Of a stretch of 64,000 nucleotides of DNA, positions 17,807-26,464 are shown in pieces. The stretch is from Aureimonas sp. SK2 (GTDB lineage Bacteria > Pseudomonadota > Alphaproteobacteria > Rhizobiales > Rhizobiaceae): NCBI RefSeq assembly GCF_029813115.1, contig NZ_JAPZDS010000010.1, forward strand, positions 1 to 64,000, read 5' to 3'. The notes beneath the pieces are model-generated. The model saw only the letters and a program-made list of their open reading frames with translations, was not told where the DNA came from and made no database searches. The translations under genes and the position numbers were made by a program. The stretch's first letter is position 1, and every line of letters begins with the position of its first letter.

Positions 17807-18008
17807 ACGGCGCTCTCCCCGTTCGACATTTCCGATACAGGAAGGGCAGCAAACGATCCATCACGGGCATAGAGCGTGGCATTAGACACTTCCGCATAGC
17901 GGACGTTCGGGCGAACGATGATCAACCCCGCGCCCACACTCGCCGTCTTGCCGCCGGCAACCGTTAAGGTATTTGAGGCGACCCCTACTGCGAACCGTGG
18001 ATTCCGCA
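17807..18008. other. Intergenic stretch upstream of the AmiC-like gene
   Basis: About 200 bp with no convincing gene; a minus-strand frame across it has no recognisable family. It should hold the promoter of the amiC-amiR pair, but no clear -35/-10 pair was seen. Confidence 0.4.
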
Positions 18009-19178
18009 ATGACCTCGACATCGGCAGGATCGGATCCGTGGCGGGTCGGCCTCCTGTTCTCGCGCTCAGGATACCTCCGGTTCACGCAAAGCGAGCACTT
18101 CTTCGGTGCGGCGCTGGCGATCAAGGAGATCAACGAGCGCGGTGGTGTCCTCGGCCGTCCCGTCGAGGTCATTGCCTACGACCCGCAGTCTGATCCGCAT
18201 CTCTACCGCGAGTTCGCCGAGCGGCTTCTCGTCGAGGACGGGATCTCCGTGATCTTCGGCTGCTCCTCGTCGGCCGAGCGGAAAGCGGTCCTTTCCTCCA
18301 TCGAGCGGCGCAACGGGCTCCTCTGGTACCCCTCCTTCTACGAGGGTTTCGAGTACTCGCCGAACGTCATCTACACGGGGGCGTGCCCGAACCAGAACAG
18401 CTTCCCGCTGGCCAACTTCATCGTGGCGAAGCTCGCCAGGCGCGTGTTCCTCATGGGGTCGGACTACATCTATCCTCGCGAGACCAACCGGATCATGCGC
18501 GACCTGATCGAGACGCAGGGCGGGACCGTCGTCGGTGAGGTCTACGGGCCACCGACGGGCGATCCGGCATGGATTCGACGCACGGTCGACGAGATTGCCC
18601 GCTTGGCGGATAACGGACCACTGACGGTGTTCTCAACCCTCGTCGGAACGCCCTCGCACGACTTCTACCGGCTCGTCCACGCGGAGGGGCTGACGGCCCG
18701 AGGCGTAGCCATGACGAGCCTGACACTCGCCGAGGGAGAGGTTCGGGCGATCGGCGCCGATGTCTGCGCCGGGCACATCACGTCGGCGACCTACTTCGCA
18801 AGCCTCCCCGGACAGGCAAGCGATCGGTTCAGGCGCAGCTTCGAGGCCGAATACGGCGATCGGGCAACGCCCAGCCAGTGGAGCGCGTCGTCCTATGCGC
18901 AGGTGCTCCTCTTCGCCGCCGCACTCGAACGCTGTGGGACGCTCGACACGCAGCGCTTGGCGGATGCGGCACAGGGTCTCGGCGTCGACGCTCCCGAGGG
19001 GCCAGTCCGGATCGATTCCGACAACAACCATGCCTGGTTGACGCCCCGCATTGCCGCGGCTTGCCGAGACGGCAGCTTCGAGATCCTCTGGCAGGGCCGC
19101 GAGCCCGTGAAGCCGGACCCCTATCTCTCCTCGACCAGCTTCCGCGCCAAGTGGATCGACGCGGTGGAAGAGGCATGA
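18009..19178 (+). CDS. amiC: AmiC-like amide/urea-sensing regulator
   Basis: About 389 residues of the periplasmic-binding-protein fold but with no signal peptide, as in AmiC, the cytoplasmic ligand sensor that sequesters the antiterminator AmiR. Family-type segments are RVGLLFSRSGYLRFTQ, WYPSFYEGFEYSPN and YTGACPNQ. The ATG at 18009 is chosen; the in-frame TTG at 17973 adds residues unlike the family. The stop overlaps the AmiR-like start as ATGA. It shares the SFYEG and VVGE motifs with the exported binding protein encoded at 20897, so sensor and transporter probably bind related ligands. It could instead be a mis-localised binding protein, but the neighbour argues against this. Confidence 0.85.
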   Translation: MTSTSAGSDPWRVGLLFSRSGYLRFTQSEHFFGAALAIKEINERGGVLGRPVEVIAYDPQSDPHLYREFAERLLVEDGISVIFGCSSSAERKAVLSSIERRNGLLWYPSFYEGFEYSPNVIYTGACPNQNSFPLANFIVAKLARRVFLMGSDYIYPRETNRIMRDLIETQGGTVVGEVYGPPTGDPAWIRRTVDEIARLADNGPLTVFSTLVGTPSHDFYRLVHAEGLTARGVAMTSLTLAEGEVRAIGADVCAGHITSATYFASLPGQASDRFRRSFEAEYGDRATPSQWSASSYAQVLLFAAALERCGTLDTQRLADAAQGLGVDAPEGPVRIDSDNNHAWLTPRIAAACRDGSFEILWQGREPVKPDPYLSSTSFRAKWIDAVEEA

Positions 19179-19777
19179 AGCCCGCGGTCCAGCGCCTGAT
19201 GGACGGGCTTCGCGGCTCGCGTGTCCTGGTCATCCACCCCCGCGACCGCGAGGGCGACATGCTGCTCGACCAACTGCGCCGGTTCGGCTGCGAGGTCGTG
19301 GGGCTCTGGCCCACGCCAAGCGTCCTGCCAACGAACTTCGACACAGTGTTCCTCCTGATCGAGGCGGATCAGTCTGTCACGGTCCCCGACGAGCGCCCGA
19401 CGCTCATCGCCATCGTCGACTACGAGAACCCGACCATCCTGCGAAAGGCCCTCGACGTCTCGGCCGAGGGCGTCGTGAACAAGCCGCTGCGGGCCTTCGG
19501 CATCCTGTCGGCGCTGGTGCTGGCACGGGCGCAGCACGGCTACGTCGCGCGTCTCAATGCCAAGGTTACCAAGCTCGAGGAGACGCTGAAAGCCCGCCGG
19601 GACATCGACAAGGCGGTCAAGATCCTGATGGGGCTGAAGAAGCTCGAGGAGCCGGAGTGCTACGAGCTCCTCCGTCAGCAGGCGACGCAGCGTCGGCTTC
19701 CGATGGCGGATGTCGCGAGGGGGATCATCCAGGCGCAGGAAGCCCTCGGCGGCTTCGGTCTCCTCGGCTCCGAATGA
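19175..19777 (+). CDS. amiR: AmiR-like ANTAR-domain antiterminator
   Basis: A 200-residue protein with the AmiR layout. The N-terminal pseudo-receiver domain (about 15-130) has IAIVDYENP but no evident phospho-acceptor signalling context. A coiled-coil linker (NAKVTKLEETLKARRDIDKA) precedes a C-terminal ANTAR RNA-binding domain (KAVKILMGLKKLEEPECYELLRQQA, MADVARGIIQAQ). ANTAR proteins bind hairpins in nascent leader RNA and prevent intrinsic termination. AmiC-bound AmiR is inactive; amide releases it. Translation is coupled to the sensor gene, and the gene ends about 50 bp before a strong promoter whose leader contains a terminator. Confidence 0.88.
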   Translation: MKPAVQRLMDGLRGSRVLVIHPRDREGDMLLDQLRRFGCEVVGLWPTPSVLPTNFDTVFLLIEADQSVTVPDERPTLIAIVDYENPTILRKALDVSAEGVVNKPLRAFGILSALVLARAQHGYVARLNAKVTKLEETLKARRDIDKAVKILMGLKKLEEPECYELLRQQATQRRLPMADVARGIIQAQEALGGFGLLGSE

Positions 19778-19826
19778 CTGCATCATCATGAGGCATCGCC
19801 GCCGCTTATTTATGCATCCAGCGCAC

Positions 19827-19855
19827 TTGACCCATGCGCAAAAAGCATCTCTAAT
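19827..19855 (+). promoter_or_regulatory. Sigma70-type promoter of the nitrilase/amide operon
   Basis: TTGACC (19827-19832) and TCTAAT (19850-19855) are separated by exactly 17 bp, in an unusually AT-rich patch. Transcription would start near 19862, giving a leader of about 120 bases before the nitrilase ATG. Confidence 0.6.
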
Positions 19856-19861
19856 GTTCTC

Positions 19862-19897
19862 AAGCTGAGATCAGCTTTCAACGGCCGGGCGGCCGTT
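19862..19897 (+). promoter_or_regulatory. Tandem leader hairpins, candidate ANTAR target
   Basis: Two stem-loops start at the predicted 5' end of the transcript. The first is 19862-19877 (aagctg/cagctt, 6 bp, 4-base loop) and the second 19880-19897 (aacggcc/ggccgtt, 7 bp, 4-base loop). A weaker acat/atgt hairpin follows at 19901-19915 and overlaps the region before the terminator. Known ANTAR targets are paired hairpins, usually with six-base loops. These do not show the conserved loop bases, so the binding role is inferred from position. Confidence 0.5.
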
Positions 19898-19917
19898 CCC
19901 ACATTCAGGCTATGTAG

Positions 19918-19960
19918 CCCTCGTCTTGCGCTTCACTGCGCTGGCGGGGGTTTTTGCTTT
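19918..19960 (+). terminator. Intrinsic terminator in the leader of the nitrilase operon
   Basis: The 5' arm ccctcgtc-tt-gcgc pairs with gcgc-t-ggcggggg through 4 bp and 8 bp (two G-U) around a small internal loop, with a six-base loop ttcact. It is followed at once by TTTTTGCTTTT. It lies 24 bp before the nitrilase ATG and downstream of the promoter at 19827. It therefore should block expression unless read through, as expected for an AmiR-controlled operon. Confidence 0.7.
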
Positions 19961-19983
19961 TGGCGCAAAGGAAACTCGCGTCC

Positions 19984-20874
19984 ATGACCTCGCACGCCCC
20001 TATGCCGGACGGCGGATCGACGATCCGTGTCGCCTGTATTCAAATGGAACCCAAGGTCGCCGAGAACGCGGCCAACCTCGCCCTGGCCATCGGGCTCGCT
20101 GGACAGGCAGCCGATCGCGGTGCACGCCTCGTCGTCCTGCCCGAACTCTGCACGTCCGGCTATGTCTTCCGCACCAAGGCCGAGGCGCGGGCGGGCGCCG
20201 AGGCGCTGACCGACGGCCCGTCGCTTCGCGCCTTCGAGACTTTCTGCCGCGAGCGAGACCTGTTCGTCGCCTTCGGCTTTGCCGAACGCGACGGTGAGGC
20301 GCTCTACAACAGTGCGGCGCTGGTCGGCCCCGGCGGGCTCGTCGGCTCCTACCGCAAGGCGCATCTCTGGGGCGAGGAGAACCTGTTCTTCGAACCCGGC
20401 GACCGCGGGTTCCCGGTCTTCCAGACTGCCATCGGCCGTATCGGCATGGCGATCTGCTACGACGTCTGGTTCCCCGAGACCTTCCGCCTGATGGCGCTCC
20501 AGGGCGCCGAGATCGTCTGCGTCCCCACGAACTGGGTGCCGATGCCCGACCAGCCGGCGGGGCAGCTCGCCATGGCCAACATGCTGACGATGGCCGGGGC
20601 GCACACGAACTCCGTCTTCGTCGCCTGCGCCGACCGCATCGGGACCGAGCGCGGACAGCCCTTCGAGGGGCAGAGCCTCATTGTCGGCTGCAACGGCTGG
20701 CCCGTCGCCGGCCCGGCCAGCCGCGACCGCGAGGAGATCGTGATCGCCGACCTCGACCTCCTCGACGCACGGCGCAAGCGCGCCTGGAACGCCTTCAATC
20801 AGCCGCTCCGGGACCGGCGCACCGACGTCTACTCCGAACTCCTCGGCGCCGACATCCGGCGCAGTTGGTACTGA
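19984..20874 (+). CDS. Carbon-nitrogen hydrolase (nitrilase/amidase superfamily)
   Basis: A 296-residue nitrilase-superfamily enzyme. The Glu-Lys-Cys triad is visible as the Glu of VVLPELCTSGY, the Lys of YRKAHLWGEE, and the Cys of GMAICYDVWFPE. These enzymes hydrolyse amides, nitriles or N-carbamoyl compounds to acids and ammonia. The length and LCTSGY context suit an amidase or carbamoylase branch, but the substrate is not determinable. ATG 19984 is preferred over 19954 because 19954 lies within the terminator T-run. It is the first gene of the AmiR-controlled operon and precedes an amide-type ABC importer. Confidence 0.88.
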   Translation: MTSHAPMPDGGSTIRVACIQMEPKVAENAANLALAIGLAGQAADRGARLVVLPELCTSGYVFRTKAEARAGAEALTDGPSLRAFETFCRERDLFVAFGFAERDGEALYNSAALVGPGGLVGSYRKAHLWGEENLFFEPGDRGFPVFQTAIGRIGMAICYDVWFPETFRLMALQGAEIVCVPTNWVPMPDQPAGQLAMANMLTMAGAHTNSVFVACADRIGTERGQPFEGQSLIVGCNGWPVAGPASRDREEIVIADLDLLDARRKRAWNAFNQPLRDRRTDVYSELLGADIRRSWY

Positions 20875-20896: not shown

Positions 20897-22057
20897 ATGA
20901 CCCCTTCCATGCGCATGTTCGCCGCGGCTCTCGCAGCCTCGACCTGTCTCCTCGGTTCAGCCCATGCGGCCGAGACGATCAAGATCGGCGTTCCCGTCGG
21001 CCTGTCGGGCGCCAACAGCACCGTCGCTCCTTCTGTCGTCCAGGCGAGCGAACTCGCCGTCGACGAGATTAACGCCAAGGGCGGCGTGCTTGGCAAGAAG
21101 CTCGAGCTCGTCGTGGTCGATGACGCCTCGGGCGCCGCGGGCGCTCAGAAGGCTTTCGACGCTTTGGTCTTCCAGAACGAGGTGAACGCGGTCGTCGCGA
21201 TGGAGACGAGCGCGGCCCGCAACGCGGCGCTGCCGATCGTCCAGCGGGGCAAGGTGCCGTACATCTACACCTCGTTCTACGAGGGCGCGTCCTGCAACCC
21301 GTACCTCTTCGCCAACGGTTGGGTGCCGCAGCAGCAGGTCCCGCCCATCGTCAACTTCTTCATGGACGAGAAGAAGGCGAAGAAGTTCTTCCTGATCGGG
21401 TCGGACTACGCGTTCGGACGCGGCATGCTCGCCTTCGCCAGGAAGGCGATCGAGGAGAAGGGCGGCACCGTGGTCGGCGAGGAGTACCTGCCGATCGACG
21501 GAACGGACTGGACCCCGGTCCTCTCCAAGCTCAAGGCGTCCGGAGCCGAGGCCCTCGTGACCTCGACGTCCGGCGGCGCGCCGAACGTCACGCTGACCAA
21601 GCAGCTCCGCTCCAGCGGCATCGACCTGCCCTACGGCAACCTCGCGGTCGACGAGGGAACGGCCCGCAGCATGGGGGCCGACGCGGCGGGCATCTACCTC
21701 TCCGCGTCCTACGTGACGGGCATCGATTCGCCTGCCAACAAGGCCTACCTCGAGGCGATGAAGGCGAAGTTCGGCGACAACCTCGTCACCCCGAACGACC
21801 TGTCGACGCCGCAGTACGAGGGCATCCTCGCTTACGCCGCCGCCGTCGAGAAGGCCGGCACGACCGATGCCCGTCCCGTCCTCGAGGCGTTGAAGACGGT
21901 CTCGGTCGACGGACCCCGCGGCACGATCACGATGTCGAAGCAGCATCACGCGCCGCTCACGATGTACCTCGCGCAGGTCCAGGCCGACGGCTCGGTCAAG
22001 GTGATCCAGTCGTTCGCTGACGTCGATCCGGGCGACCAATGCCCGAAGCTCAATTGA
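20897..22057 (+). CDS. Urea/short-chain-amide-type ABC substrate-binding protein
   Basis: A 386-residue type I periplasmic binding protein with a signal peptide (MFAAALAASTCLLGSAHAA). Mature features are IGVPVGLSGANSTV, YIYTSFYEGASCNPYLF and KFFLIGSDYAFGRGM, typical of the UrtA/FmdD amide and urea branch of the branched-chain amino acid transporter family. Its start follows AGAGAAGGAAAC. It resembles the AmiC-like sensor at 18009, suggesting a shared ligand class. A stable hairpin follows the stop, before the permease gene. Confidence 0.88.
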   Translation: MTPSMRMFAAALAASTCLLGSAHAAETIKIGVPVGLSGANSTVAPSVVQASELAVDEINAKGGVLGKKLELVVVDDASGAAGAQKAFDALVFQNEVNAVVAMETSAARNAALPIVQRGKVPYIYTSFYEGASCNPYLFANGWVPQQQVPPIVNFFMDEKKAKKFFLIGSDYAFGRGMLAFARKAIEEKGGTVVGEEYLPIDGTDWTPVLSKLKASGAEALVTSTSGGAPNVTLTKQLRSSGIDLPYGNLAVDEGTARSMGADAAGIYLSASYVTGIDSPANKAYLEAMKAKFGDNLVTPNDLSTPQYEGILAYAAAVEKAGTTDARPVLEALKTVSVDGPRGTITMSKQHHAPLTMYLAQVQADGSVKVIQSFADVDPGDQCPKLN

Positions 22058-22073
22058 CCCGTCGCTGAGCCGG

Positions 22074-22095
22074 GGCGGCGTGCGGATGCGCCGCC
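22074..22095 (+). promoter_or_regulatory. Hairpin downstream of the binding-protein gene
   Basis: A 7-bp GC stem (ggcggcg/cgccgcc) with an 8-base loop lies 16 bp after the binding-protein stop, followed by a pyrimidine-rich stretch. It could act as a 3' stabilising element or partial terminator that lets the binding protein be made in excess of the permeases. Confidence 0.5.
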
Positions 22096-22127
22096 GCCCT
22101 TCCCTTTCCCCAACGAAAGACGCGCGC

Positions 22128-22961
22128 ATGACGCTGCTCCTCGACGTCGTGACGACGGCGGCCATCCTCTTCTGTCTGTCTGCCGGGCTCCTCGTGGTCT
22201 TCGGTGTCCTGAAGATCATCAACTTCGCGCACGGCGCGTTCATCACCGTCGGCGCCTTCGCCGCCCTTCTCGGCACCTGGATCGGCCTTCCCTTCGTAGC
22301 GGCCGTCGCCTTGGCTTTCGCGGTCGGCGCTCTTCTCGGCGGTGTCGTCGAACGGGTCCTCGTACGGCCCCTCTACCACCGGCCGCTGGACGCCATCCTC
22401 GTCACTTGGGGCCTCGGCATCGTGCTGGCCCAGCTCATCATCATGGGATTCGGGCGTGGCATCCAGTTCGTCGATGCGCCGCTCCCCGGGACGGTGGACG
22501 TCCTCGGCACGTCCTACTCGACCTATCGGCTGGCGATGGTGGGCGCGGCCATCGGCATCGGCGTCGCCTTCACGGCACTTCTCAACGGAACGCGCCTCGG
22601 CCTGTCGACCCGCGCCGTCATCATGAACGAGACGCTGGCCCAAGCGCTCGGCATCAACTCGGCCCGAGTCCGCTTCGTCACCTTCGGCCTCGGTTGCGGG
22701 CTCGCCGCCATGGCGGGCGCCCTCATCACCCCGCTCGCCAGCGTCGATCCCAACATGGGCATCGCCTACCTCACCGGTGCCTTCATGCTCGTCATGGTGT
22801 CCGGCGGCTCGCTTCCGACGCTCGCCGTCGCCTGCCTCGTCCTCGGAAGCGCGCAGGTGTTGGCCTCCAGCTTCATCACCCCCGTGGTCGGCGCCCTCGC
22901 GATCCCGATCCTCGCCGCGCTTGCGCTCAGACTCCGCCCGGAGGGCTTCGCCCGTGCCTGA
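22128..22961 (+). CDS. Amide/branched-chain-type ABC permease (LivH/UrtB-like)
   Basis: A 277-residue inner-membrane permease with about eight hydrophobic helices. The LivH/UrtB pattern FGVLKIINFAHGAFITVGAFAA appears near the N-terminus, and ALGINSARVRFVTFGLGCGLAAMAG in the ATPase-contact region. ATG 22128 starts at the first hydrophobic helix; the in-frame 22080 start lies on the hairpin. The 3' end overlaps the next gene by 8 bp. Confidence 0.9.
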   Translation: MTLLLDVVTTAAILFCLSAGLLVVFGVLKIINFAHGAFITVGAFAALLGTWIGLPFVAAVALAFAVGALLGGVVERVLVRPLYHRPLDAILVTWGLGIVLAQLIIMGFGRGIQFVDAPLPGTVDVLGTSYSTYRLAMVGAAIGIGVAFTALLNGTRLGLSTRAVIMNETLAQALGINSARVRFVTFGLGCGLAAMAGALITPLASVDPNMGIAYLTGAFMLVMVSGGSLPTLAVACLVLGSAQVLASSFITPVVGALAIPILAALALRLRPEGFARA

Positions 22962-24756
22962 CATCGCCCTTTCGCCCTCGTCGACCCCCCGCAGTCTTCC
23001 CGGCGGCCGAGCAATCCCTGCGCTTTTCCTCGCACTGGCCCTGGCCTTCGTCGTCTTCGGACCTGCCGTCCTCGACCTCTACGCCATCAATCTTCTGACG
23101 CGTGCGTTTTTCGTCGCGATCGTCGCCATCACCGTCTCGATCCTTTGGGGAGCGACCGGGTTCCTCACGTTCGGACAGTCGGCCTTCTTCGGTATCGGCG
23201 CCTACGCGCTGGCGATGACCTTCACGGAGTTCGATTTCGGTCCATGGCAGGCCGCGCTCGGCTTCGCCCTTGCGATCCTGGCCGCAGGCGCCGTCGCCGC
23301 GTTCGTCGGCTGGATCTCGTTCTACCCGGGCTCTACCCCTCTCTACGCCACGGTGATCTCGCTCGTCCTGCCGATCGTCCTGGTCCAGGTTCTCTACTCC
23401 GGCGGGGAACTCACCGGGTCCTCCAGCGGGCTTGTCGGCTTCTTCACCTTCGATCTCGACCTCGACGTCTGGTTCCGAATTGGCGGCATCGCCCTCCTCC
23501 TCGTGACCGTCCTCGCGCAGGTCATGTTGTCCAGTGACGCGGGCCGGCTCCTTCTCGCCGTCCGCGACAACGAGGCCCGTTGCGCCTATCTCGGCATCGA
23601 CACGCCGAAGCTGCGCATCCTCCTCCTCGTCCTATGTGCGATGGTCGCCGCGGCGGCCGGCTTCGGCTACGCAGGCTTCGGCGGTGTCGCCGCTCCGGAG
23701 AACGCAAGCTTCGTTTTCGGCACGCAGCTCGTCGTCGCCGTCGCCCTGGGCGGACGCGGCTCTCCGATCGCCGCCGCCATCGGCGCCGTCGCGATCGAGA
23801 TCGCAACCGCCTACCTCTCCGGCATCCTGCCCTTCGTCTGGGAACTCCTCGTCGGAGCCGCATTCATCCTGACCATCCTGCTCCTTCCTGAGGGCCTGTT
23901 CGGCAGCATCCTCAAGCGGGTCTCGCCGCCGACGAAGGGTGCGCGCCTTGCCGAAACTGCGAGGGCTGTGGCTCCCGCGACGAGGAGTAGCGATGCGGCT
24001 GTCGTATGCCGCAACGTCTCGAAGAGCTTCGGATCCTTGCAGGTCCTGCGCGACGTCAACCTAGCGACGGCTCCCGGGGAGCTTGTCAGCCTCGTCGGCC
24101 CGAACGGTGCGGGCAAGTCGACCCTGATGAAGTGCCTTGCCGACGGGCGTGAGCGCAGCGGGGGCGACATCGCGGTCTTCGGACACGACATCGACAAGCT
24201 GCCACCGGACCGCCTTGTCCGCTTCGGCCTCGGCCGCAAGTTCCAGATGGCGTCGGTGTTCGAGAGCTTGACCGTCGCGGAGTGCCTCCGGGTCGCACGG
24301 GCCCGCTTCGAAAGCCCCTCGACGATTCGGCGCGCTACCGACTTGGCCTTGCCCGCGTCCGCCATTCGCATCGTCGAGATGTCGGGATTGGCGGATCGGC
24401 TGGACGTCGTCGCACGCGACCTCAGCCATGGCCTCAAGCAGGCCCTGGAGCTTGCGATGGTCATGGCGCTCGAGCCGAAAGTGGTGCTTCTCGACGAACC
24501 GACGGCCGGGCTGACGCGCATCGAGCGCCGGCAGATCGGTGCTATCCTTCAGGACCTCTGCCGCCAGGACGGGATCTGCATACTCCTCGTCGAGCACGAC
24601 CTCGACTTCGTGAAGGACATCTCGTCCCGCATCGTCGTCCTGCACCAGGGACGGATCGTGCTCGACGGCTCGACGGACGATGTCTTGTCGTCGCCGCTGA
24701 TCGAGGAAATCTACGCAGGGGCCCATGCGCCCGCAGCCGCGGAGGCACGCTCGTGA
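22954..24756 (+). CDS. Fused ABC permease-ATPase (LivM-LivG / UrtC-UrtD type)
   Basis: A 600-residue fusion starting with GTG at 22954, eight bases inside the preceding permease gene. Residues 1 to about 330 form a LivM/UrtC permease (ILWGATGFLTFGQSAFFGIGAYALAM). Residues about 350-600 form an ATPase with Walker A VGPNGAGKST, signature LSHGLKQALELAM and Walker B VVLLDEPTAGLT. The LSHG signature is closer to UrtD of urea transporters than to LivG. The GTGA overlap couples it to the second ATPase. Continuous reading through the junction without a stop or lost domain suggests a real fusion. Confidence 0.88.
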   Translation: MPDIALSPSSTPRSLPGGRAIPALFLALALAFVVFGPAVLDLYAINLLTRAFFVAIVAITVSILWGATGFLTFGQSAFFGIGAYALAMTFTEFDFGPWQAALGFALAILAAGAVAAFVGWISFYPGSTPLYATVISLVLPIVLVQVLYSGGELTGSSSGLVGFFTFDLDLDVWFRIGGIALLLVTVLAQVMLSSDAGRLLLAVRDNEARCAYLGIDTPKLRILLLVLCAMVAAAAGFGYAGFGGVAAPENASFVFGTQLVVAVALGGRGSPIAAAIGAVAIEIATAYLSGILPFVWELLVGAAFILTILLLPEGLFGSILKRVSPPTKGARLAETARAVAPATRSSDAAVVCRNVSKSFGSLQVLRDVNLATAPGELVSLVGPNGAGKSTLMKCLADGRERSGGDIAVFGHDIDKLPPDRLVRFGLGRKFQMASVFESLTVAECLRVARARFESPSTIRRATDLALPASAIRIVEMSGLADRLDVVARDLSHGLKQALELAMVMALEPKVVLLDEPTAGLTRIERRQIGAILQDLCRQDGICILLVEHDLDFVKDISSRIVVLHQGRIVLDGSTDDVLSSPLIEEIYAGAHAPAAAEARS

Positions 24757-25454
24757 GCGAGACACTCAGCATCCGCAACCTGACGAGCGGCTACGGCGGG
24801 GCCATAGTGCTCGACGACGTCTCGCTCGGGGTCGGCACAGGCCGCATCAGTGCCCTGATCGGACGGAACGGCGTCGGCAAGTCGACGCTCCTGAAGACGG
24901 TCATGGGGTTCCTGCCCGCACGTCGCGGCTCGGTCACCGTGGGCGGCGAGGAAGTGACCCGGGTCGCTCCGAACCGCCGCGCCGAGCAGGGCATCGCCTA
25001 CGCGCCCCAGGAGAAGGCGCTCTTCCAGGACCTGTCCGTCAGGGACAATCTTCGCCTCGGGATCCGGAGCGATGCGGAGTTCGATCGCCGCTTCGTCGCG
25101 GCCGAGGAGGCTTTCCCGTTCCTCGCCAGCCGCTTTCACCAACGGGCCGGCTCGCTGTCAGGCGGCGAGCAGAAGATGCTGATCGTCGCACGCGGCATCA
25201 TGGCAGAGCCGCGTCTCTTTATGCTCGACGAGGTGACGGAGGGCCTCCAGCCGTCGGTGATCGAGCGACTCGGCACCGTCCTGCGCTCATTGCGCGACCG
25301 CACGGGCGTCTCGATCCTTCTGGTGGAGCAACATCTCCCGTTCGTCATGAGTGTCGCCGACGACTTCGCCGTCATGAAGGGCGGACAGGTCGCGGCTTCG
25401 GGTCCGATGGGCCCCGAGGCGCAGGGCGCGATCGAGGAGGCCATGCGGTTCTGA
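24753..25454 (+). CDS. Amide-type ABC ATPase (LivF/UrtE-like)
   Basis: A 233-residue ATPase starting with GTG 24753 in a GTGA overlap with the fusion gene. It has Walker A IGRNGVGKST, signature LSGGEQKMLIVARG and Walker B LFMLDEVTEGLQPSVI. The EGLQPS wording is typical of UrtE-like subunits and supports urea or amide as the transported class. It completes the importer, and its stop overlaps the asparaginase start by one base (TGATG). Confidence 0.9.
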   Translation: MSETLSIRNLTSGYGGAIVLDDVSLGVGTGRISALIGRNGVGKSTLLKTVMGFLPARRGSVTVGGEEVTRVAPNRRAEQGIAYAPQEKALFQDLSVRDNLRLGIRSDAEFDRRFVAAEEAFPFLASRFHQRAGSLSGGEQKMLIVARGIMAEPRLFMLDEVTEGLQPSVIERLGTVLRSLRDRTGVSILLVEQHLPFVMSVADDFAVMKGGQVAASGPMGPEAQGAIEEAMRF

Positions 25455-26464
25455 TGTCCTCCCGCAACGAACCACGACGGGTGCATGTCCTGACCACTGG
25501 GGGGACGATCGCCTCCAAGAGGCGCGATGTCGACGGAGACGTCGTTGCTGCTGCGAGCGGCGCTGACCTCCTTGCATCGGTCGGCGGCGCGATCGCCGGC
25601 ATCGACGTGACCGTCGAGGACTTCTGCCAAGTGGGCAGCTACGCCATGGACCTGCCGCTGGTGCTGTCGCTCTCCCGACGTATTCGTCAACACCTGTCGC
25701 GATCCGACTGCGACGGCGTCGTCGTCACGCACGGCACCGACACGATGGAGGAGAGTGCCTATCTCTGCGACCTGACGGTGCCCGGCGACAAGCCGGTCGT
25801 CTTCACCGGAGCCCAGCGCAACGCCGACATGCCGAACACCGACGGACCGGAGAACCTGCGCGACGCGATCTCCCTCGCAGCGACCCCTGCCGCGGGCGGC
25901 ATGGGAACCCTCCTATGCTTCGACGGAACCTTCCATGCCGCCCGCGACGTCACCAAGACGCACACGACCAGGCTCGACGCCTTCGGTTCTCGCGGGCACG
26001 GACCACTGGGCACGATCGCGTTCGGACAGGTCGACGTCCGTCGCCGCTGCCGGCGATCCGAGACCTTAGATCCGACGCGCCTCGACGGTGGGGTTCAGTT
26101 GCTGAAGCTCTCTTTGGGAGCCGACCCCAGGATGATCGTTGCGCTAAGGGAGTTGGGGGCCACTGCCATCGTGATCGAGGCGTTCGGTCTCGGGAACGCA
26201 CCGCCGGCGCTCCTCCGACCGATCGAGGAATGCGTGGACTCGGGCGTTCCCATTATCATCTCCAGTCGATGCGCCGAGGGTCCTACGCGCCCCCTCTATG
26301 GGAACGGAGGCGGTCGGGATCTCGAGCGGAGCGGTGCAATCTTTGCTTCAGACCTCGCGGGGACGAAGGCGCGGCTCCTCGCATCCGTGCTTCTTGGCTC
26401 GGGTCATGCCGGGCACGAATTCGAGCAGGCGTTCGTGCGGTGCGTGACGTTTGCCGCGGAATGA
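25454..26464 (+). CDS. ansA: L-asparaginase-family amidohydrolase
   Basis: A 336-residue asparaginase. The first catalytic threonine lies in HVLTTGGTIASK and the second in VVVTHGTDTMEESAY. It hydrolyses L-asparagine (possibly glutamine) to the acid and ammonia. There is no signal peptide, so it is cytoplasmic. It is the last gene of the nitrilase/ABC operon (start ATG 25454 overlaps the ATPase stop). The operon thus carries two different amide-cleaving enzymes behind one amide sensor and one importer, which suggests use of amides or asparagine-like compounds as a nitrogen source. Confidence 0.88.
   Translation: MSSRNEPRRVHVLTTGGTIASKRRDVDGDVVAAASGADLLASVGGAIAGIDVTVEDFCQVGSYAMDLPLVLSLSRRIRQHLSRSDCDGVVVTHGTDTMEESAYLCDLTVPGDKPVVFTGAQRNADMPNTDGPENLRDAISLAATPAAGGMGTLLCFDGTFHAARDVTKTHTTRLDAFGSRGHGPLGTIAFGQVDVRRRCRRSETLDPTRLDGGVQLLKLSLGADPRMIVALRELGATAIVIEAFGLGNAPPALLRPIEECVDSGVPIIISSRCAEGPTRPLYGNGGGRDLERSGAIFASDLAGTKARLLASVLLGSGHAGHEFEQAFVRCVTFAAE

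Follow-up and report, generated by a model that had tools for sequence, protein, structure and literature searches.

A conserved ANTAR-type leader with complementary loop ends between amiCR and a nitrilase operon in Aureimonas sp. SK2

The window analysed here, a stretch of 64,000 nucleotides from Aureimonas sp. SK2, contains between an AmiR-like gene and a nitrilase-like gene a leader that, judged by comparison with its homologues, is real and conserved, and whose hairpins P1 and P2 are recognisable by the same comparison as an ANTAR-type pair. Control of the downstream nitrilase/ABC operon by AmiC-AmiR antitermination through this leader is by far the simplest reading of these sequences, and we put its probability at about 0.9. 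The antitermination mechanism itself is already known; what departs from its published definition are the target loops and the AmiR residues that would read them. Throughout, AmiR homologues and the leaders next to their genes are called T172 or M172, after the residue (Thr or Met) at the position equivalent to EutV 172, and the window belongs to the T172 clade.

Genes and parts of the leader

The locus (Table 1) starts with a gene for an AmiC-like protein, whose best matches among solved structures are those of P. aeruginosa AmiC (1qnl/1pea, E ~1e-84). Its stop is overlapped by the AmiR-like gene (ATGA), which thus has the overlapping upstream AmiC-type partner of the AmiR family. The AmiR-like product contains an AmiR_N pseudo-receiver and an ANTAR domain, both above the cut-off (121.7 bits for PF21332 and 51.1 bits for PF03861), matches AmiR 1qo0 with an E of 3.7e-23, and aligns with EutV 6wsh without gaps over 111 residues. 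The nearest solved structures to the nitrilase-like protein are nitrilase-type CN hydrolases (E ~1e-56). For the remainder of the presumed operon, the LivF-like frame was judged from its sequence and the other frames by domain scan. Gene order in Rhizobium leguminosarum WSM1325 pR132502 is identical through the second ATPase, after which an amidase family gene takes the place of the asparaginase-like gene, and Paracoccus yeei and Agrobacterium vitis contain the sensor, the ANTAR protein, the nitrilase and the binding protein in the window order.

Table 1. Features of the amiCR-nitrilase locus and its leader (positions in the window).
Feature	Position	Strand	Basis or remarks
AmiC-like amide/urea-binding sensor gene	17973..19178	+	Peripla_BP_5, E 1.8e-115; listed TTG start, true start maybe downstream
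AmiR-like antiterminator gene (AmiR_N + ANTAR)	19175..19777	+	PF21332, E 1.9e-35; PF03861, E 1.2e-13
Predicted promoter TTGACC-17-TCTAAT	19827..19855	+	TTGACC 19827-19832, spacer 17, TCTAAT 19850-19855
Hairpin P0, accessory; AAGCUG[AGAU]CAGCUU, 6 bp, ends 2 nt before P1	19862..19877	+	sequence, folding
Hairpin P1, ANTAR-type; AACGGCC-GGGC-GGCCGTT, 7 bp; loop C[CGGGCG]G, positions 1/6 complementary	19880..19897	+	covariation
Linker element CACAT between P1 and P2	19900..19904	+	conservation in T172 leaders
Hairpin P2 (predicted antiterminator); GGC[UAUGUA]GCC, GGCTATGTAGCC	19908..19919	+	98.5% of cells paired (33 leaders)
Intrinsic terminator	19916..19955	+	outer helix 19916-19925/19943-19952, 10 bp incl. 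G-U; U-run 19951-19955
Nitrilase/N-carbamoylputrescine-amidase-like carbon-nitrogen hydrolase gene, presumed regulated gene	19984..20874	+	CN_hydrolase, E 2.5e-53
Presumed operon remainder: LivK-like binding protein, LivH, LivM+ATPase fusion, LivF-like ATPase, asparaginase-like protein	20897..26464	+	domain matches

An earlier note on this DNA, made from the letters alone, had proposed a leader placed for ANTAR antitermination. That proposal is strongly supported, by comparison of the protein family, of the AmiC partner and of the covarying P1, P2 and terminator; its assignment of the hairpins was wrong. The promoter lies where the note had it, and the AmiR-like gene, said to end about 50 bp upstream, has its stop 49 bp from the -35. 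Both tandem hairpins, of 6 and 7 bp, are likewise present, and were mistaken for the ANTAR pair: the first is the accessory P0 and the second is P1, while the true P2, with the letters GGCUAUGUAGCC, had been overlooked. The terminator, described as 4+8 bp, does have its inner 4-bp helix (GCGC 19928-19931 with 19938-19941) and its U-run; the outer helix, counting G-U, comes to 10 bp instead of 8.

In 35 of 42 T172-clade leaders, TTGAC precedes P1 by 25-80 nt, whereas letter shuffles lead one to expect about two. The second letter of the window -10 is C, and the -10 elements of the homologues are variable and, in several, poor. A simple promoter/terminator scanner listed neither TTGACC-17-TCTAAT nor the leader terminator, because its rules require the second letter of the -10 to be A and the loop length to be 3-8. 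The terminator ends in TTTTTGCTTTT, with 28 nt from the U-run to the ATG of the nitrilase. It is very improbable that this terminator merely ends the amiC-amiR transcript and that the nitrilase is expressed from its own promoter with no attenuation; although a terminator placed after amiR would serve both purposes, the distance to the ATG is just 28 nt, TTGAC precedes P1 in most homologous leaders, and the conservation of P1 and P2 would be left unexplained.

The layout follows the canonical ANTAR motif as given in PMC3369931 in having two tandem hairpins of at least 3 bp (P1, 6-7 bp; P2, 3-4 bp) and a second hairpin that overlaps the terminator, AGCC (19916-19919) being common to both. Since this 3' arm of P2 opens the 5' arm of the terminator, P2 and the terminator base are mutually exclusive. 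Free folding of 19862-19983 gave P0, P1 and the terminator (z = -2.78, with 1 of 200 shuffles equally stable). P2 alone has an energy of -3.5 kcal/mol, as compared with -23.7 kcal/mol for the terminator, which is thus favoured energetically, so that the default state should be off. The best leader fold (-42.3 kcal/mol) changed to -38.0 kcal/mol with P2 forced and then retained part of the terminator stem, indicating that P2 excludes the base of the terminator and not the whole hairpin. The loops of P1 and P2 can be drawn as C:G-closed hexaloops, yet their positions 1 and 6 are complementary; the free fold closes P1 to a tetraloop and, by folding energies, P2 with the 1-6 pair closed is the more stable form. 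In 5000 dinucleotide shuffles of 19778-19983, tandem tetraloop hairpins of at least 6 and at least 7 bp never occurred, and 11 shuffles had a C:G-closed hexaloop hairpin whose 3' arm also belonged to a terminator helix of 8 bp or more.

Comparison thus establishes which parts make up the leader, that they are conserved and that P2 and terminator are mutually exclusive. Taken together, the protein family, the AmiC partner and the covarying P1, P2 and terminator speak strongly for antitermination by the AmiR-type protein encoded next to the leader. Transcription would start near 19862. Without inducer, AmiC would hold AmiR, the terminator would form and transcription would stop before the nitrilase. 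Binding of the AmiC ligand, probably an amide, urea or a nitrile-derived compound, would free AmiR to bind both loops, P1 and P2, in the growing transcript and to stabilise the weak P2, which would sequester the AGCC needed by the terminator and let the polymerase read through.

Conservation and covariation among homologous leaders

A covariance search of homologous leaders had been suggested as a check, and it upheld the leader: in an alignment of 33 distinct leaders located downstream of AmiR homologues of a single clade, P1, P2 and the terminator are conserved with covariation. For P1 plus P2, 98.8% of 330 cells were paired, with 26 double changes (shuffles, 90.6 +/- 0.7; slid versions, 62.4% at most), and for P1 plus terminator 98.9% of 462 cells, with 45 double changes (slid versions, 56.1% at most); none of 500 shuffles was as high as these paired fractions of 98.8-98.9%. 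Taken singly, P1 has 99.0% of its cells paired and double changes at four of six pairs, and the 8-bp terminator helix 98.9% and double changes at three pairs. The further pair types were not unusual, being reached by 223 of 500 shuffles for P1 plus P2 and by 34 of 500 for P1 plus terminator. RNAalifold, unaided, recovered P1 and the terminator from this alignment. This conservation across leaders is stronger evidence than the shuffle tests of the window.

Column 44 of the alignment takes part in both P2 and the terminator, and changed jointly with its partner columns 31 and 76 in L089 and L091, close relatives in which the three-way change was probably one event. The change is direct comparative support for a switch between P2 and terminator.

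When the 4.56-Mb genome was searched with covariance model R2, built without the window, nothing but the window leader matched up to E 10; its score was 74.3 bits (E 1.5e-12). Model R1, among whose members the window is, found 25 places at E<=0.01 in 24 of 397 genomes of the order, 22 of them, by coordinates, within 250 nt downstream of an AmiR hit; the others are in G793, in G791 and at a second place in G738. An R1 place is present in all 21 genomes with AmiR at E<=1e-45 and, among the 19 genomes with weaker AmiR hits only, in G840 (beside an AmiR fragment) and G791 (E 0.007, elsewhere). Because most leaders are R1 members, this co-occurrence is a consistency check and not an independent test. 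The place in G793 (L128, G793:C12) has a partly broken P1, in a genome without an AmiR hit at E<=1e-20, and is perhaps a decaying copy of the leader. No recognisable leader follows the T172 AmiR genes L131 and L136, from Paraburkholderia.

The dual-hairpin model does not explain the conserved linker ACAU or the extra P0, which might speak for a ligand-binding riboswitch or for a factor other than AmiR. We consider this extremely unlikely: Rfam gave no match in the whole window at the gathering threshold, nor in 19700-20050 at the permissive E<=1; the motif tracks AmiR genes, as counted above; and the conserved helices in the modelled stretch are small hairpins, with no larger conserved fold. 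Pairing of the linker ACAU with the P2 loop AUGU, which is possible in the window, was rejected as a general anti-antiterminator, ACAU being constant while the P2 loop varies (UUUGGA, UUCGUA).

Further leaders were seen in relatives. Several M172-type amiCR operons have an additional ANTAR-type leader match, weaker than the first, in front of amiC (model R2, E 0.03-0.7; L054:2725-2798, L055:2727-2791, L056:2721-2791, L057:2722-2792, L058:191-264, L059:192-265, L104:219-290, L139:345-409, L147:341-411), and its position suggests autoregulation of those operons; the window gave no R2 match upstream of amiC at E<=1. In L064 (1035-1119 and 1159-1241, minus strand), in L143 (2163-2236 and 2264-2348) and in the L164 leader, the next gene is apparently preceded by two consecutive attenuators, each made up of small hairpins plus a terminator.

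Reading residues, loops and hairpins of the T172 clade

In the structure of EutV with RNA, G4 of the loop is flipped out onto Tyr164 and held by Arg142, Lys149 and Glu160, A1 makes no specific contact, and Met172 sits in the loop, where it was suggested to exclude smaller loops such as tetraloops; the M172A change abolished RNA binding (PMC8934654). With EutV numbering assigned from the residues named in that paper, both the ungapped EutV alignment and a wider alignment place Thr at position 172 and Val at 149 of the window AmiR, in place of the Met172 plug and Lys149. The residues around G4 (Y164, E160 and R142) are all present by ungapped alignment, and R168 and R175 are likewise kept. Position 163, preceding Tyr164, is Cys in the window, where Ala is nearly constant.

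The 97 AmiR-type rows that we compared comprised 48 T172, 43 M172 and six unparsed rows. Lys at 149 was found in none of the 48 T172 rows, as compared with 40 of the 43 M172 rows. Loss of K149 was rejected as a mark unique to the T172 clade, since it is also absent from three of the 43 M172 AmiR rows and from other ANTAR proteins. A control scan of L013-L031 for residues 149 and 172 parsed five of 19 loci, one of them (L025) misplaced. T172 is one change on the tree, and in 86% of bootstrap trees, on a weakly supported branch (84/55); in a second tree it is a single change in 92%, with branch support of 94/87. Because T172 arose about once, its link with the loop changes described below is confounded by descent. 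The clade ranges over Hyphomicrobiales, with members in Paracoccus and Paraburkholderia. Searching 398 genomes of the phylum brought in L155 and L156; extension to the family of G103 (8 genomes) and that of G147 (20 genomes) yielded no further members. L156 (G1065) is a T172 AmiR outside the class, with leader loops AGGGCU in P1 and UAGGAA in P2; by eye, this leader seems to precede a binding-protein gene rather than a nitrilase.

The target of ANTAR proteins is a pair of small hairpins whose hexanucleotide loops both contain A1 and G4, and of which the second overlaps the terminator (PMC3369931). The earlier note held that the hairpin loops lack the usual ANTAR bases, and that either the target differs or another fold forms. 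Both alternatives apply, P2 forming the other fold and the A1 of the A1/G4 code not being kept. As to the bases, A1 is indeed absent (C in P1, CGGGCG; U in P2, UAUGUA), and for this reason we did not place the leader within the canonical A1/G4 motif of PMC3369931; its G4 is kept in both loops.

For comparison across the two groups, P1 was assigned in 46 of 48 T172 rows (all except L131 and L136) and in 23 of 43 parsed M172 rows, the remaining M172 rows being left uncounted for an unclear P1 call or weaker hairpins (e.g. L101, L102). The automatic caller identified P1 in 39 of 46 T172 and 17 of 38 M172 rows; other loops were assigned manually, including those of L004, L085, L088, L093, L095, L132 and L137 and of L007, L011, L081, L104 and L147, and the P1 stem is interrupted by one mismatch in L004, L132 and L137. 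Positions 1 and 6 of the P1 loop are complementary in 46 of 46 T172 leaders versus 10 of 23 M172 leaders and, treating distinct loops as independent although the sequences are related, in 14 of 14 versus 5 of 14 loops (p = 0.0006). The pair is A-U, C-G or U-A in T172 leaders, and in the alignment of 33 leaders it is 26 times A-U, six times C-G and once U-A, never broken; on the tree, two changes are required to account for C at position 1, and U-A is a further event. G4 of P1 is kept in 28 of 46 T172 leaders, being lost in the other 18, versus 21 of 23 M172 leaders (all except L011 and L143), and in 6 of 14 versus 12 of 14 distinct loops (p = 0.046, on the same assumption); this G4 difference, obtained with L011, L143, L147, L164 and others included, is weaker than without them.

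In P2, compiled by hand without L085 and L088, which have longer P2 loops, G4 is nearly constant (11 of 12 distinct T172 loops and 17 of 18 distinct M172 loops). All 12 distinct T172 hexaloops read U....A, and 8 of the 18 M172 loops are complementary. T172 as the explanation of the U...A loop was rejected, as M172 leaders (L054, L055, L057, L007, L099, L101, L103, L105) have it too. In two Paracoccus leaders (L132:2288-2377 and L137:2288-2378; T172, A149, F164), GGCA forms the core of P1 and of P2 alike, C having replaced G4 in each hairpin.

These data bear on how AmiR would read the leader. In ordinary ANTAR antitermination, the protein would open the 1-6 pair and bind a normal hexaloop, T172 and V149 would be tolerated, and the complementary ends would reflect selection for stable GC-rich hairpins. 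We give this slightly less than an even chance. G4 in both window loops and in nearly all distinct P2 loops of the clade agrees with it, as do the spacing, the C:G closing pair and the terminator overlap, which are those of the canonical motif, and the U...A loops common to some M172 leaders. It is harder to reconcile with the loss of EutV RNA binding in M172A (PMC8934654), with a 1-6 complementarity that is invariable in T172 leaders and maintained through A-U, C-G and U-A, and with the Paracoccus change of G4 to C in both hairpins, giving identical cores.

Alternatively, an AmiR clade whose recognition surface has changed, through loss of K149 and replacement of M172 by Thr, may read loops with paired 1/6 bases and not the open A1/G4 hexaloop, a tentative proposal whose odds we place below even. 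On the same tentative footing, the clade may have switched to a second ANTAR-RNA code of closed, tetraloop-like hairpins with a covarying closing pair, typically three in tandem (P0, P1 and P2). It is plausible from the sequences, at similarly modest odds, that A1 and, in P1, G4 would no longer be needed under such a code. The proposal rests on protein and RNA having changed in parallel within a group that probably arose once, and is weakened by the M172 relatives that partly have the same loops.

The third hairpin follows the clade. In a search for any loop, run with a control and in leaders with enough sequence (four M172 leaders were too short), a hairpin of at least 4 bp ended within 3 nt of P1 in 41 of 42 T172 leaders (all except L004) versus 4 of 19 M172 leaders; when 5 bp or more were required, the counts were 39 of 42 and 3 of 19. 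A stricter caller, which demands C:G closure, gave P0 in 18 of 39 T172 and 4 of 17 M172 leaders with a called P1. P0 being frequent in T172 and rare in M172 leaders, the third tandem hairpin goes with the T172 clade. Its loop is in many members P1-like, C[A....U]G, and has drifted in the window, in Bradyrhizobium and in most Ancylobacter leaders; the core AGAU of the window is identical in L083. The linker ACAT is found in 35 of 39 T172 leaders versus 2 of 17 M172 leaders, the latter count including three miscalled rows (L056, L104, L143).

The frequency of P0 beside P1 in this clade, and its often P1-like loop, could mean that P0 and P1 are the ANTAR pair and that P2 is incidental. This is improbable, because P0 is variable in loop and stem, and its hexaloop is not C:G-closed in the window, in Bradyrhizobium and in most Ancylobacter leaders, whereas P2 is nearly invariant, overlaps the terminator and shows the three-way covariation. 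Furthermore, the distance between the P1 and P2 loops, 22-26 nt in all 39 T172 leaders measured, is near that of the M172 leaders (21-28 nt in 14 clean calls of 17), which mostly lack P0. P1 and P2 thus remain our ANTAR-type pair.

Relation to known ANTAR systems and significance

The AmiC-AmiR/amiE system of P. aeruginosa shares with the window a homologous sensor and antiterminator, a C-N hydrolase target, a leader terminator, and P1 plus P2. In the window, amiCR is upstream of the leader, and the P. aeruginosa ami gene order differs from this amiCR-before-leader order. The dual P1/P2 hairpin reported for amiE has A1 and G4 in both loops (PMC3369931); in contrast, the window loops are without A1, there is the extra P0, and T172/V149 replace M172/K149. 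EutV and the eut motif of E. faecalis also feature a nitrogen-metabolism operon preceded by two small hairpins, of which the second overlaps the terminator and both contain G4, and the window AmiR keeps Y164, E160, R142, R168 and R175 of EutV. Unlike in the eut motif, the window has no A1 and its loop ends are complementary, and K149 is changed to V, M172 to T, N173 to Q and R177 to P. The dual hairpin of Klebsiella oxytoca NasR/nasF has, like the window, a C:G closing pair atop each stem; its SELEX, however, prefers this C:G closing pair with A1 and G4, and NasR has K347 and the Met equivalent, the K347R change weakening binding about tenfold (PMC7496416). K347 of NasR aligns with K149 of EutV in the wider alignment, with numbering from the residues that the papers name.

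The M172 AmiR leaders, mostly of the same order (e.g. L054-L057, L008, L048-L051), are like the window in their layout of P1, P2 and terminator, and several have the U...A P2 loop. They differ from T172 leaders in the scarcity of P0, in the near-constant G4 of P1, in the less frequent 1-6 complementarity and, in several, in the second leader upstream of amiC. The window genome itself contains two ANTAR proteins in a Pfam search, the second of which has K149/M172. As the genome has both, we conjecture that a changed code would insulate the nitrilase operon from the canonical ANTAR protein of the cell.

In literature searches confined to open-licence PMC papers, we recognised no title describing a T172 AmiR or this P1/P2 leader. 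The published ANTAR target search, as set out in PMC3369931, used A1/G4 loops as a criterion, and surveys based on A1/G4 may miss such leaders. Although Met172 was reported to be essential in EutV (PMC8934654), a natural clade without Met172 and Lys149 keeps a conserved putative antiterminator beside its gene. The T172 clade therefore offers a direct test of the loop bases and protein residues that set ANTAR specificity, and its AmiR and leader are a possible orthogonal antiterminator pair. For the bacterium, the nitrilase/ABC operon is placed under likely AmiC-AmiR control.
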